Source: Gaiellaceae bacterium
Lineage (GTDB): Bacteria; Actinomycetota; Thermoleophilia; Gaiellales; Gaiellaceae
Assembly (NCBI GenBank): GCA_030446625.1
Contig: JAUJMY010000003.1
Coordinates: 1-64,000 of the forward strand
DNA: 64,000 nucleotides
Reading direction: 5' to 3'
Within the stretch, counting starts at the first letter, position 1. Each line of letters opens with the position of its first letter. Shown here one piece after another: positions 4,624-48,283 of this stretch. Under the pieces are notes generated by a model. It was not told the DNA's origin and did not search any database. It saw nothing but the letters and a program-made list of their open reading frames with translations. A program made the position numbers and the translations under genes.

Positions 4624-6225
4624 ATGAGGAAGTTCTTCTCGACAGCGCTTGCGCTGTCGGCGTTCCTCGTGGTCGCCGCGAACGGCGCCGCGAAAGCACA
4701 ACTAGCGCCGACGCGCGCTACGCAGTCGTCTTCAGCAACCCGAACGGGCTGCCCGCGAACGTCGACCAGATCGTCGCGAAGGCGGGCGGCACGATCACGA
4801 CGCGCATCGAGCAGATCGGCACCATCGGCGTCACCTCGGCGAACCCGAACTTCATCGCCGAGATCGAGGCGAATCCAGCCGTCAAGGCGGCGGATCCGGA
4901 CGTCCCGATGAATCTGATTCGGAAGGCGAGGACGTCCAGCCGTTCGATGCGGAGAACAACGGCGCACCGGCCCCGCCGAGCCCGCCGGTCCGGACCCGCA
5001 GCCCATGCCGGACAACCTCGGCCGCGAGCAGTGGGACAAGATGCGGATGAACGCGACGCTGACGGGGTCGTATGCCGTCCAGCAGGGCAAGAAGCAGGTC
5101 GTCGCCGCCGTGCTCGACACCGGGGCCGAGGTCCTGCCGACGCCTCACGTCGACATCGCGCCGAACCTCGACTTCGCCCGCAGCCGCTCGTTCGTGGACT
5201 CCTCCACGGGCAGGGCTCTCTCGGTCGCCGATCCGAACCCCGCGAGCTGGGACGACCGGAACGGACACGGGTCGTGGTGCCTGAGCGCCGTGGGCGCTCC
5301 GATCAATGTCCTCGGGATCTCCGGCGTCGCACCGAACGTCACGCTCGTCGCGCTCAAGGTGCTCGGCGACACGGGCCGCGGCAGCTTCCTCGGCGTCGCG
5401 AACGCGCTCGTCTACTCGGGCTTGAACAAGTTCGACGTCGCGTCGATGAGCCTCGGCGGGTACCTGAACCACAGCGACTTCAACGCGTTCTTCGTGATCC
5501 TCAACCGCGCGACGCAGTTCGCCCGCGAGAACGGGGTGCTTCCCGTCGCCGCGCTTGCCAACAACAACTTCGACCTCTCCGACGGCCAGTTCTTCCGCGA
5601 CTTCTTCGAGGCCCCGGGTGAGATCGCCGGCACGGTCGGTGTCTCGGCGACGGGCTACTTCAACCAGAAGGCGTTCTACTCGAACTACGGCGTCGGCATG
5701 ACGGATGTCTCGGCGCCGGGTGGCTCGACGCGGAACAACTCCGGCGTTCCCGGCAGCGGGCTCGTCGGTGACACAGGCCCCGCACCGTACCGCGGCATCG
5801 GTCGCCTGCTCGGCGCGTACACGCAGGAGGGGCTGGGCGGGCGGTTCCCGCCGCTCAACGAGGAGGAGTGCGACGAGGCGACGGGCAACTGCTACTACTA
5901 CGCGTGGCTGCAGGGAACGTCCATGGCGACGCCGCATGTCGCCGGAGTCGCGGCGCTGATCATCTCGCAGTACGGCGACTTCGAGAGCGGCGGCAATCCG
6001 AACAAGATCCACCTGGCGCCGACGCAGGTCGAGTCGATCCTCCAGATCACGGCGAACAACCAGCCGTGCCCGGAGGACGGCACCTTCACAGGCGGGCCCG
6101 GCTTCACGAGTGCGGACACCGACTGCGAGGGCAACACCGGCTACAACAGCTTCTTCGGCAAGGGCATTGTCGATGCCGTCAAGGCCGTGACGTTCAACCC
6201 GCAGCAGTCAGGCGGAAACGGCTAG
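4624..6225 (+). pseudogene. subtilisin-like protease 1, disrupted by frameshifts
   Basis: Closest relative of the intact protease at 6289-7866 in the same window. The signal peptide (ATG 4624, after the RBS GGGGAGAGGG) is in one frame. The pro-region ADARYAVVFSNPNG.. (from about 4715) is in a second, an EGEDVQPFDAENNG segment (4922-4970) in the third, and AEPAGPDPQPMPDN onward (from about 4975) returns to the first. The catalytic domain is then uninterrupted to TAG 6225, with DTGAEV, NGHGSW and GTSMATPHVAG holding the Asp, His and Ser. Three indels within 300 bp followed by 1.2 kb of clean sequence may be consensus error or recent loss. A start inside the catalytic part (for example ATG 5005) would lack signal and propeptide. 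Confidence 0.8.
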
Positions 6226-44790: not shown

Positions 44791-44874
44791 GAACAGGCTA
44801 GCCCGCCGCCGCGCACGGGGCGGGTGACGGAAATGCGCCAAGATTGCGCGCGTCGATCCACAGGAGGAGGCGCC

Positions 44875-45645
44875 GTGGCAGAGGTCGAGACGACGCGGGA
44901 CGGAGGCGTGCTGACGATCACGCTCAACCGGCCGGACGTGCTGAACGCGTTCGACTCCGCGATGCACCGCGCGCTCGCAGCGGCGCTGAAGGAGGCGCGG
45001 GACCCGGAGGTGCGCGCCGTCGTGCTCACGGGTGCGGGGCGCGGGTTCTGCGTCGGCCAGGACCTGACCGAGTTCCGCGACGCGCCCGGCGACATCGGTG
45101 AGCGGCTGCGCCGGAACTACCACCCGAACATCCTCGCGCTCCGCGCGCTCGAGAAGCCCGTGCTCGCCGCGGTGAACGGTCCCGCCGCAGGTGCGGGGCT
45201 TTCGCTCGCGAGCGCCTGCGACCTGCGGATCGCCGCCGACAACGCGAGCTTCGTCCCGGCGTTCATCGGCATCGGGCTCGTGCCCGACTCCGGGGGGTCG
45301 TTCTTCGTCGCGCGGCTCCTCGGTCACGCGCGCGCGTTCGAGTGGATGACGTCGAACCGCAAACTCACGGCCGCGGAGGCGCACGCGTGGGGGCTCGTGT
45401 CGGAGGTCGTCGAGGCCGACGCGTTCGCGGCGCGCGCGGCCGAGCTCGCCGCGACGCTCGCCGCGGCGCCGACGCGCGGGATCGCGATGACGAAGCGCCT
45501 CTTCGACGCGGCCGCGACCTCGACGCTCGAGGAGCAGCTCGAGCTGGAGGCTCAGCTCCAGGCGGCGGCGACGCGCACCGACGACTTCGCAGAAGGCGTC
45601 TCCGCCTTCCTAACCAAGCGCCCGCCGGAGTTCCGCGGCTCCTAG
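44875..45645 (+). CDS. paaG: enoyl-CoA isomerase, PaaG-like
   Basis: 256 residues from GTG 44875 with strong [32 protein letters not shown] lacks the hydratase Glu, while FIGIGLVPDSGGSFFVARLLG carries the catalytic Asp of PaaG-type isomerases. It converts ring 1,2-epoxyphenylacetyl-CoA to the oxepin. Its TAG overlaps the stop of the convergent Sec-containing gene (CTAG). Confidence 0.88.
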   Translation: MAEVETTRDGGVLTITLNRPDVLNAFDSAMHRALAAALKEARDPEVRAVVLTGAGRGFCVGQDLTEFRDAPGDIGERLRRNYHPNILALRALEKPVLAAVNGPAAGAGLSLASACDLRIAADNASFVPAFIGIGLVPDSGGSFFVARLLGHARAFEWMTSNRKLTAAEAHAWGLVSEVVEADAFAARAAELAATLAAAPTRGIAMTKRLFDAAATSTLEEQLELEAQLQAAATRTDDFAEGVSAFLTKRPPEFRGS

Positions 45646-45863
45646 CGCGCGCGGAGCGCGTCGAGGACCTCGCGCTCCTCCGGGAAGCGCCCCTCGCTCT
45701 GCTTCGAGAACACGAGCTCGCCATCCGCGAGCACGTCGAACTGCGCGTGTCCGCCCGCGGCGATCGTCGCGTCGAACCCGCTCTCCTTCAACGCGGCCGC
45801 GAGACTCGCGGCTTGAACGTCATACCCGCTTCAGACGGGGCAGTAGTAGATCTCTATGCGCAC
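45642..45863 (-). CDS. Rdx/SelW-family selenoprotein with in-frame TGA (Sec)
   Basis: 74 codons from GTG 45863 to TAG 45642, interrupted only by TGA at 45833-45831 (codon 11). It reads RIEIYYCPV-U-SGYDV, then AALKESGFDATIAAGG, QFDVLADGELVFSK and GRFPEEREVLDALRAR. This is the compact thioredoxin-like Rdx (SelW/SelT/SelH) fold with Sec in its CxxU redox motif. A perfect 7-bp hairpin with GUC loop starts 18 nt after UGA (45812-45796), fitting bacterial SECIS geometry. TACCGT lies 8 nt before the start. It follows paaD by 40 bp on the same strand. Alternatives: a Cys codon misread as TGA, or a pseudogene; the intact 62 codons after TGA argue against decay. Confidence 0.78.
45796..45812 (-). promoter_or_regulatory. 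candidate bacterial SECIS hairpin
   Basis: On the minus strand GCCGCGA-GUC-UCGCGGC, a perfect stem with a small loop starting with G-U, beginning 18 nt after the UGA of the Rdx gene. SelB-dependent Sec insertion in bacteria needs a hairpin at about this distance with conserved G/U in the loop. Confidence 0.6.
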
Positions 45864-45903: not shown

Positions 45904-46389
45904 TCAGATCGTCTTGAACTGCTCGAAGGGCTGCCTGCAGCCCGTGCAGTAGCGGAGCGAGCGGCACGGTGTCGGGCCGAAGATGTTCTCGAGCCGCGTC
46001 TCCGTCGAGCCGCAGTACGGGCAGCGGAAGGCGCCGGTCTGGAGCTGGACGAGCGTCGTCGCGCCGGCCGCGCGTGGCGAGGGCGGCGCGAACCCGGCAG
46101 CGCGCAGCTTCTCGCGACCTTCGGGGGTGATGCGGTCGGTCGACCACGAATCGTCGAGCACGACCTCGATCTCGGGCTCGGCGCCGAGCGCGTGGAGCCG
46201 CTCCGACATCGCGTCCCGCATCACCTCCAGCGCGGGGCAGCCGAGGAACGTCGGCGTGAAGCTCACGCGCACGCGCCTTCCGTCGACGTCGACGTCGCGG
46301 ATCACGCCGAGGTCGACGAGCGAGATCACCGGGATCTCCGGATCGGGAACCTCGGCCAGCGCCTCCCACACGCGCTCGCTGGTTACCAC
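45904..46389 (-). CDS. paaD: phenylacetyl-CoA epoxidase subunit PaaD
   Basis: 161 residues from GTG 46389, overlapping the paaC end by 7 bp. VPDPEIPVISLVDLGVIRDV is the MIP18/DUF59 N terminus; the C-terminal zinc-ribbon has CPYC and CTGC pairs with a further Cys in PCRSL. PaaD helps mature the epoxidase, probably its metal centre. A SelW-like gene follows 40 bp later. Confidence 0.9.
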   Translation of the reverse strand: MVTSERVWEALAEVPDPEIPVISLVDLGVIRDVDVDGRRVRVSFTPTFLGCPALEVMRDAMSERLHALGAEPEIEVVLDDSWSTDRITPEGREKLRAAGFAPPSPRAAGATTLVQLQTGAFRCPYCGSTETRLENIFGPTPCRSLRYCTGCRQPFEQFKTI

Positions 46390-47027
46390 TGCGCCCCCGC
46401 CGGCTCGCTCCGGCGCACCATCGTCATCTCGTCCCACAGCTCGCGCAGCGCGTCGGTGTGGGCGTCGCGCTCGACCGCCGGCACCTCGGGCCGCCCGACG
46501 AGGGCCGCGAGCTCCGCACGAAGCTCCGGGTCGACGACGCCGAGCGCGGACGGCCACAGCTCGTCGACCGCTTCCTGGAACCGCGCCTCGTCGCGCAGGC
46601 GCGCGAACCACATGTCGGCGTGCATGCGGTGGTACGCCTCCTCGCGGTCGATCTTCGCGGCGAGGCCGGCGAGGTCTTCGTCGCCTCCGCGCCGCAGAGC
46701 CGCTAGGCGGATCCAGTCGGCCGCCTCGTACAGCCAGTGCCGCGCGATCGTCTTCGCCCAGTCGTCCACGAGGCGGAGCTCGACGAGCGGCGCGCACCGG
46801 TACTCGCCTGGCTGGCGGTCCAGCGCGAGCTCGTCCGCCGTCGTTCCGAGCTCGCGCGCGACGAGCTGGTAGAGCGCCCGCGCGTGGCCGATCTCGTTCT
46901 GCGCGATCGACGAGAACGCGACGTCCTCCTCGAGGAAGGGCGCGATCCCGGTCCACTCGGAGTTGCGCCAGCCAAGGACCAACTCGTCGTCGGCGATCTC
47001 CAGCAGGCGCTCGTGGAGATGACGCAT
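46383..47027 (-). CDS. paaC: phenylacetyl-CoA epoxidase subunit PaaC
   Basis: 214 residues from ATG 47027 with RBS GGGGGAGG. Ferritin-like helices LLEIADDELVLGWRNSEW and SSIAQNEIGHARALYQLV are conserved. PaaC is the structural, non-catalytic partner of PaaA. The ATG overlaps the stop of a 34-aa ORF (TGATG), implying coupled translation. Confidence 0.92.
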   Translation of the reverse strand: MRHLHERLLEIADDELVLGWRNSEWTGIAPFLEEDVAFSSIAQNEIGHARALYQLVARELGTTADELALDRQPGEYRCAPLVELRLVDDWAKTIARHWLYEAADWIRLAALRRGGDEDLAGLAAKIDREEAYHRMHADMWFARLRDEARFQEAVDELWPSALGVVDPELRAELAALVGRPEVPAVERDAHTDALRELWDEMTMVRRSEPAGAQW

Positions 47028-47131
47028 CAAGCCTCCCCCCTGGGAAAAGTGCGTCGCGTAAGCGCGTCGCACTCTTCGCAACGAGGCTCGTCGTCAGCGA
47101 TCTCGAGCAGCTGCCGTGCGCGCTCGCTCAC
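47027..47131 (-). CDS. 34-residue CxxC small protein between paaB and paaC
   Basis: GTG 47131 with near-perfect RBS AAGGAGG at good spacing. The product is SERARQLLEIADDEPR-CEEC-DALTRRTFPRGEA with one CxxC. It starts inside paaB and its TGA shares a base with the paaC ATG, so it is coupled on both sides. LLEIADDE also occurs at the PaaC N terminus, so the ORF may derive from a duplicated paaC start. It may be a real microprotein (metal or thiol) or only a coupling device. Confidence 0.55.
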   Translation of the reverse strand: MSERARQLLEIADDEPRCEECDALTRRTFPRGEA

Positions 47132-47381
47132 GCGCCTCCTTCAGCTTGTCGCGCAGGGAGTAGCCGTCGACGCGGTGGTAGTTGCGCTCGAGCTCGTCCA
47201 CGAAGTCGTGCACCTCGAGGATCGCCTGGCGCGGCACGACCCACAGCCCGACGGACTCGCCGCGCCGGCCGTACTGCTCGCGCGCGTACGCCTCCGCGAA
47301 GGCCTGGTCGGGCGCCGCGATCGCACCAGCGTGCGCGTACGGCTGCCCCTTTCGCTCCTGCCGGAAGACCTCGTAGACCAT
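47094..47381 (-). CDS. paaB: phenylacetyl-CoA epoxidase subunit PaaB
   Basis: 95 residues from ATG 47381, overlapping the paaA stop as TGATG. VYEVFRQERKGQPYAHAGAI and YGRRGESVGLWVVPRQAI are typical PaaB. Small bridging subunit of the epoxidase complex. Confidence 0.93.
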   Translation of the reverse strand: MVYEVFRQERKGQPYAHAGAIAAPDQAFAEAYAREQYGRRGESVGLWVVPRQAILEVHDFVDELERNYHRVDGYSLRDKLKEARERARTAAARDR

Positions 47382-48283
47382 CAAGCCGCTTCGGCGAGGA
47401 CGGTCTGCCGCACCCATGCAGAGTTCTCGCGTGCGAGCCGGCGGAAGTCGAGCCGCTCCTGCGAACGCGGTCCGTGCCCGGTGACGACGCTGCGCAACTC
47501 GTCCCAGTCGGGCTCCGTGTAGTGCCAGACGCCCGTCTTCTCGTCCTTGCGCAGGTTCGCGTCCGGCACCGTCAGGCCGAGCTCCCAGATCTGCGGCACG
47601 TATCCGTCCAGGAACTGCTGGCGTGCGTCCTCGTTCCCCTGGCTCTTGATCCGCCAGACGTACATCGGGTCCTCCTCAGCGCGGATCGGGTTCCCGTGGA
47701 ACTGCATCAGCGGGCCCCACCAGCGGTCGAGCGCCTCCTGAACGAGCTCGCGCTGCGCGTCGCTTCCGTTCATCAGCGTGAGGACGACGTCGCGGCCGTG
47801 AAGGATGTGGAACGACTCCTCCCAGCAGATCTTCTTCATGATCCTCGCGTATGGCGCGTACGAGCACTTGAGGAGCGCCTTCTGGCTGATGATCGCGGCC
47901 GCGTCGACGAGCCACGCGATCACACCGACGTCGCCCCAGGTCTTCGTCGGGTAGTGGAAGACGTTGTGGAACTTCGCGCGGCCGGAGATCAGGTCTTCGA
48001 GGCACTGCTCGCGGGGCTTCCCGAGGTCCTCGACGACCCGGTAGATGAGCTGCGCGTGGCCGACCTCGTCCTGCACCTTCGCCGTCAGCGCCAGCTTTCG
48101 CTGAAGCGTCGGCGCGCGCAGGATCCACTCGCGCTCGGGGAGGACGCCCATGAGCTCCGAGTTGCCGTGCATCTCGATGAACTTGATCAGCTTGGCGCGG
48201 TAGTCGTCCGGCATCCAGTCACCCGACTCCACCTGGCCGCCGCCCTGCACGTACTCGAGAAACGCCTGCTCCCGCGGCTCCAT
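47381..48283 (-). CDS. paaA: phenylacetyl-CoA epoxidase catalytic subunit PaaA
   Basis: 300 residues from ATG 48283 with RBS GGAGGAGGAG. Diiron ligands sit in KVQDEVGHAQLIY and CWEESFHILHGRDVV (two ExxH motifs); GVLPEREWILRAPTLQRK is a family block. With PaaC it epoxidises phenylacetyl-CoA using O2. First gene of paaA-paaB-ORF34-paaC-paaD; paaE (reductase) is not present in the window. Preceded by the likely PaaR operator. Confidence 0.96.
   Translation of the reverse strand: MEPREQAFLEYVQGGGQVESGDWMPDDYRAKLIKFIEMHGNSELMGVLPEREWILRAPTLQRKLALTAKVQDEVGHAQLIYRVVEDLGKPREQCLEDLISGRAKFHNVFHYPTKTWGDVGVIAWLVDAAAIISQKALLKCSYAPYARIMKKICWEESFHILHGRDVVLTLMNGSDAQRELVQEALDRWWGPLMQFHGNPIRAEEDPMYVWRIKSQGNEDARQQFLDGYVPQIWELGLTVPDANLRKDEKTGVWHYTEPDWDELRSVVTGHGPRSQERLDFRRLARENSAWVRQTVLAEAA

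Follow-up and report, generated by a model that had tools for sequence, protein, structure and literature searches.

The paaABCD genes of a Gaiellaceae bacterium, which encode subunits of the phenylacetyl-CoA epoxidase, are followed by a short reading frame that is overlooked in ordinary gene finding, since its putative active-site codon is the stop codon TGA. Two questions are raised by this locus: whether the frame encodes a selenoprotein, and whether its product has a role in the aerobic phenylacetate pathway beside which it is encoded. The locus was analyzed within a window of 64,000 nucleotides (contig JAUJMY010000003.1, positions 1 to 64,000; assembly GCA_030446625.1) and compared with other genomes of the family and class. 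Coordinates of the features are collected in Table 1.

Table 1. Features of the selW-like locus, with positions in the 64,000-nucleotide window
Feature	Position	Strand	Evidence
paaG-like isomerase gene, convergent	44824..45645	+	TIGR02280, 286 bits, below the cut-off of 345; best family match
Predicted selW-like selenoprotein gene, CPVU active site	45642..45863	-	Frame, profiles, fold, conserved TGA
Predicted SECIS hairpin, 7-bp stem, GUC loop	45796..45812	-	Fold, covariation, near-frozen synonymous sites, published constraints
TGA codon 11, predicted selenocysteine	45831..45833	-	Alignment with the family's Sec/Cys site; every site-spanning homologue has TGA
paaD, directly upstream	45904..46402 (start putative)	-	TIGR02159, 179 bits, over cut-off, on 45904-46383
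paaC	46383..47081	-	TIGR02158, 149 bits, over cut-off
paaB	47094..47417	-	TIGR02157, E=4e-13, below cut-off; assignment supported by position and similarity
paaA	47381..48283	-	TIGR02156, 387 bits, over cut-off

A SelW-like reading frame downstream of paaABCD

The original prediction, which was made from the sequence of the window, described a frame of 74 codons with CPV-TGA at codons 8 to 11 and 62 further codons, and reading the minus strand from 45863 to 45642 recovers exactly this frame. A GTG start and nine codons precede the in-frame TGA, and the 62 sense codons that follow it end at a TAG stop. With the UGA read through, the product would be a protein of 73 amino acids, VRIEIYYCPVUSGYDVQAASLAAALKESGFDATIAAGGHAQFDVLADGELVFSKQSEGRFPEEREVLDALRAR*. 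Both of the blocks that had been taken as typical of Rdx proteins, GELVFSK and GRFP, are present in the translation, and the stop codon does overlap that of the paaG-like gene as described, the two sharing a single ctag at 45642-45645.

For profile searches the Sec residue was entered as Cys. The protein matched the Pfam family Rdx (43.8 bits against a cut-off of 22.6, E=3e-11) and NCBIfam TIGR02174 (CXXU_selWTH; 42.1 bits, cut-off 34.2). The lowest NCBIfam E-value, 4.5e-15, was obtained with SelTWH_Campy (NF041051), but assignment to that equivalog was ruled out since the score of 55.7 bits lies below its cut-off of 88. An AlphaFold (AF2) model built from 20 locus proteins had a mean pLDDT of 97 and places CPVU (residues 8-11) directly after the first predicted strand (residues 2-7). 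The top fold matches of this model in the PDB were bacterial SelW-related proteins, with mouse SelW lower in the ranking, and a sequence-profile search of the PDB returned the same SelW-related group. Five solved structures (2p0g, 2obk, 2ojl, 2fa8 and 3dex), which are structural-genomics entries described as SelW-related or hypothetical, share a common fold with the query, with TM-scores of about 0.76-0.89 over the query and identities of 21-32%. The proposed membership in the Rdx/SelW family is therefore upheld by two profile matches over cut-off and by the fold.

Bacterial SelW-like selenoproteins described previously (PMC1088965, PMC1794560, PMC2398784) resemble the present protein in their CxxU motif and small Rdx fold, in a SECIS placed right after the UGA, and in having few or no Cys homologues in organisms that use Sec. 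Those examples come mainly from marine metagenomes, Deltaproteobacteria, Clostridia and Symbiobacterium, whereas the present proteins form a clade from soil Thermoleophilia and differ from them in their conserved place among paa genes. Of the selenoproteins found in marine samples, SelW-like proteins are some of the most abundant (PMC2398784), and the function of the bacterial proteins has been described as unclear (PMC1088965). Literature searches on selenoproteins in Thermoleophilia and selenocysteine in Gaiellales found nothing relevant, and a search for a selenoprotein associated with phenylacetyl-CoA epoxidase found no paper. The present proteins thus add a new clade to an established selenoprotein family, and their gene context is unreported in the literature searched. 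They also document a Sec-only gene, hidden from standard ORF calling, in a soil lineage that is large and for the most part uncultured.

Conservation and predicted decoding of the TGA codon

Homologues were found in 53 of 299 genomes of the class and in 64 of 103 genomes of the family, which comprises soil Thermoleophilia; of the relatives that carry a name, most are soil MAGs with the label Actinobacteria, Thermoleophilia or Gaiellaceae. Alignment of these homologues had been suggested as a check on the TGA codon, and every homologue that spans the site has TGA there. No Cys version turned up in a search of the class, the family and the paa loci of genomes negative for SelW. The only match to the Cys pattern in the genome collection, L155, was set aside as not a relative (16 residues match). 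Orthologues of the first group are mostly 50-68% identical through and past the TGA, a second SelW-like subgroup with the motif YCVPU likewise has TGA, and more distant Sec forms occur in Chloroflexota. Downstream of the hairpin the frame has a median dN/dS of 0.40 (32 pairs, NG86; a rough value in such GC-rich DNA), which points to purifying selection acting on this part of the frame.

The more distant SelW-like group in other genomes of the class, which mostly carries YCVPU and bears TGA (L071-L080; for example L073:4046-4270), has no paa genes nearby in the stretches fetched. In the Chloroflexota MAGs (L151-L154, at about 6001-6222) the SelW-like selenoproteins have CTSU or CTAU and a hairpin at the equivalent position (GCC GCC AGT TTG/CTG GCG), and paa genes are not nearby within the available flanks.

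A perfect hairpin with a GUC loop had been noted 18 nt after the UGA, and GCCGCGA-GUC-UCGCGGC does fold as claimed, its loop starting 25 nt past the UGA and its minimum free energy (MFE) being -13.2 kcal/mol. Since such stability is usual in GC-rich DNA (folding energy z of about -0.5 to -1.3, which is unexceptional), the fold of a single sequence is weak evidence and the case rests on comparison. Similarly, the sole match to Rfam in the whole window at gathering thresholds was a tRNA, so that the argument for a SECIS depends on the alignment. Published constraints on bacterial SECIS elements (PMC13188914) specify a loop of 3-9 nt, a stem of 4-16 bp, a G within loop positions 1-2, a distance of 16-37 nt from the UGA and an MFE <= -7.5, and the hairpin falls within these limits with its 3-nt GUC loop, 7 bp, 25-nt distance and folding energy.

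Orthologues have the sequence GCC GCG AGT CTC GCG GCC downstream of the UGA with few deviations. In the hairpin, Ala and Leu codons could vary freely at their third positions, yet these are nearly frozen. The serine of the loop is encoded by AGT in all 43 loci that have Ser at this position, whereas in 15 frames from the same genome AGT makes up 1.2% of the Ser codons, and further downstream in the orthologues 2.5%. Loci with a different loop residue retain GT through GGT or CGT, the single exception being L074 (AGG), and the loop begins with G-T in 49 of 50 loci. Across the alignment 98.3% of 350 pair cells are paired. Two stem pairs, each of which joins two third codon positions, show two-sided changes, one from C-G to G-C and the other from G-C to C-G (8 cells), and the latter change also occurs in the Chloroflexota homologues. 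The number of paired cells, the number of two-sided changes and the covariation score each exceeded all 500 shuffles, which ignore relatedness; a control slide of +3 gave 9 two-sided cells, but only 49% of cells were paired. One-codon deletions are tolerated in the spacer between the UGA and the hairpin. The downstream SECIS that had been postulated is accordingly supported by its fold, conserved pairing and agreement with the published constraints, and this rigid element with compensatory changes offers a clean detection model.

Conservation of the TGA, the frame and the synonymous sites of the hairpin indicates that hairpin and frame are more than chance. The TGA could nevertheless be a true stop, with the remainder a decayed or non-coding remnant, a reading for which nothing speaks beyond the TGA itself. 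It is rendered extremely improbable by the retention of the TGA and the downstream frame across genera and into Chloroflexota, by the dN/dS after the TGA and by the compensatory changes in the SECIS.

SelB and tRNA-Sec decode UGA beside such a hairpin in the standard bacterial mechanism. The original prediction supposed that the organism makes selenoproteins and named a lack of sel genes as the observation that would speak against it; this objection falls away because a search of the genome found all four components. The tRNA-Sec scores 65 bits and has the anticodon TCA according to ARAGORN, selB and selA lie nearby on the contig that carries it, and selD is present. Some genomes that have neither selA nor selB, G009 among them, also give matches to the tRNA-Sec model, weaker ones of about 45-52 bits, which probably represent other tRNAs with long arms. 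A selB over cut-off is missing in 17 of 59 SelW genomes; selA, a strong tRNA-Sec or both were found in five of them (G079, G126, G183, G207 and G249), and the others are mostly fragmentary MAGs. Formate dehydrogenase, a common selenoprotein, was sought in the genome with the window and gave neither a match over cut-off nor an in-frame TGA. When the same genome was scanned with a SECIS model derived from the orthologues, the selW-like gene was the only confident match, the next having an E-value of about 0.09, so that no further selenoproteins were revealed.

Alternatively, the genetic code could be changed such that TGA is read as Trp or Cys. Nothing was seen in favor of this reading and it merits practically no credence, as paaD ends normally at TGA, a tRNA-Sec with a TCA anticodon is present together with selA, selB and selD, and the TGA occupies the position homologous to the Sec/Cys of SelW. 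With a cis element and the factor genes both found, SelB bound to the downstream stem-loop would act with tRNA-Sec to insert selenocysteine at UGA codon 11, and the product would be a small protein of the thioredoxin-like type whose active site is CPVU. As judged from sequence comparison, the gene almost certainly encodes a genuine SelW-like selenoprotein of the Rdx family.

Association with phenylacetate genes

Profiles bear out the placement of the selW-like gene in the paa cluster, downstream of paaABCD (Table 1). Identification as a selenoprotein and placement in this cluster, taken jointly, are very likely correct. Compared with the paaABCDE cluster for phenylacetyl-CoA epoxidase, paaABCD and a paaG-like gene here flank selW, paaE is absent, and the selW-like gene instead stands at the end of paaABCD. 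The original prediction was right that paaE is missing from the region: no match was found in the genome, and none over cut-off in any of the 103 family genomes, though most of these have paaA. The C-terminal part of PaaD matches a short haloarchaeal PaaE model, below cut-off.

A di-iron oxygenase requires a one-electron donor, and it had been hinted that the SelW-like protein fills the gap left by PaaE. Both the absence of paaE, here and family-wide, and the position of selW next to paaABCD would fit this idea. However, paaABCD genomes that lack SelW, including G009, are also without paaE over cut-off, and on this ground the SelW-like protein was rejected as a PaaE substitute. In addition, CxxU proteins lack a flavin or iron-sulfur cofactor, and the SelW fold is not known to hold either of the cofactors of PaaE-type reductases, flavin or 2Fe-2S. 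Replacement of PaaE is thus very improbable.

Wherever paaD or paaG was found near selW, the arrangement is constant: paaD precedes selW on its strand, and paaG follows it in convergent orientation. The selW gene begins 20-73 nt past paaD in the window and in six other loci (L032, L034, L035, L048, L050 and L054), while one or more genes lie between the two in other loci, and in genera g5 and g10 selW is located away from paa. Among the 103 family genomes, 53 have both SelW and paaA, 6 have SelW only, 16 have paaA only and 28 have neither, which corresponds to an odds ratio of 15 (16 among selB-positive genomes) and to p=0.001 at the genus level, phylogeny being corrected for to that level. 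Two of the six SelW genomes without paaA are more than 90% complete (G003 and G135). Conversely, G009, which consists of a single contig, retains paaABCD and has no selA, no selB over cut-off, no SelW and no Cys replacement for SelW that could be found. Since paaABCD is kept without SelW in this and other genomes, SelW is not indispensable to the pathway.

Possible roles of the SelW-like protein

CxxU proteins are thiol/selenol oxidoreductases. The SelW-like protein probably serves in redox maintenance for the aerobic phenylacetyl-CoA pathway, as a thiol/selenol redox partner that would be produced alongside the epoxidase and act as an accessory rather than as an essential electron donor. A role tied to phenylacetate metabolism is slightly favored on the strength of the gene order and co-occurrence. 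It is almost as likely that this true SelW-like selenoprotein is a general redox protein whose position beside paa is inherited gene order, a reading to which we assign a considerable though somewhat smaller probability. SelW proteins elsewhere are general thiol-redox proteins, selW lies apart from paa in g5 and g10 and is present in G003 and G135 despite their lack of paaA, and unrelated genes intervene in many loci. Against a purely inherited order, the orientation relative to paaD and paaG is constant wherever these genes are found near selW, despite the inserted genes, and the co-occurrence with paaA persists at the genus level.

For the epoxidase-linked role, a tentative chemistry can be envisaged in which cycling of a Cys-Sec selenenylsulfide would reduce oxidized thiols or peroxides near the oxygen-using di-iron epoxidase; protective or reductive chemistry of this specific kind is less likely than not. 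It is similarly speculative that the Sec-only SelW is the first selenoprotein to be devoted to a pathway for aerobic degradation of aromatics, maintaining or modulating the epoxidase in soil Thermoleophilia and being one client that keeps selenocysteine decoding alive in the lineage. Its fixed position in a defined catabolic locus provides a concrete place to test a SelW-like protein.

Two other features of the genome were noted. A DnaB-type helicase frame of 878 amino acids on contig C29 (L017:187-2823) contains an intein-like insert (CLAGETRVYL ... VHNS), as read by eye. Two elongation-factor matches occur with equal scores and spacing at C11:90024-93248 and C25:1122-4346, and this identity suggests that the short contig C25 duplicates part of C11, through either assembly redundancy or a repeat.
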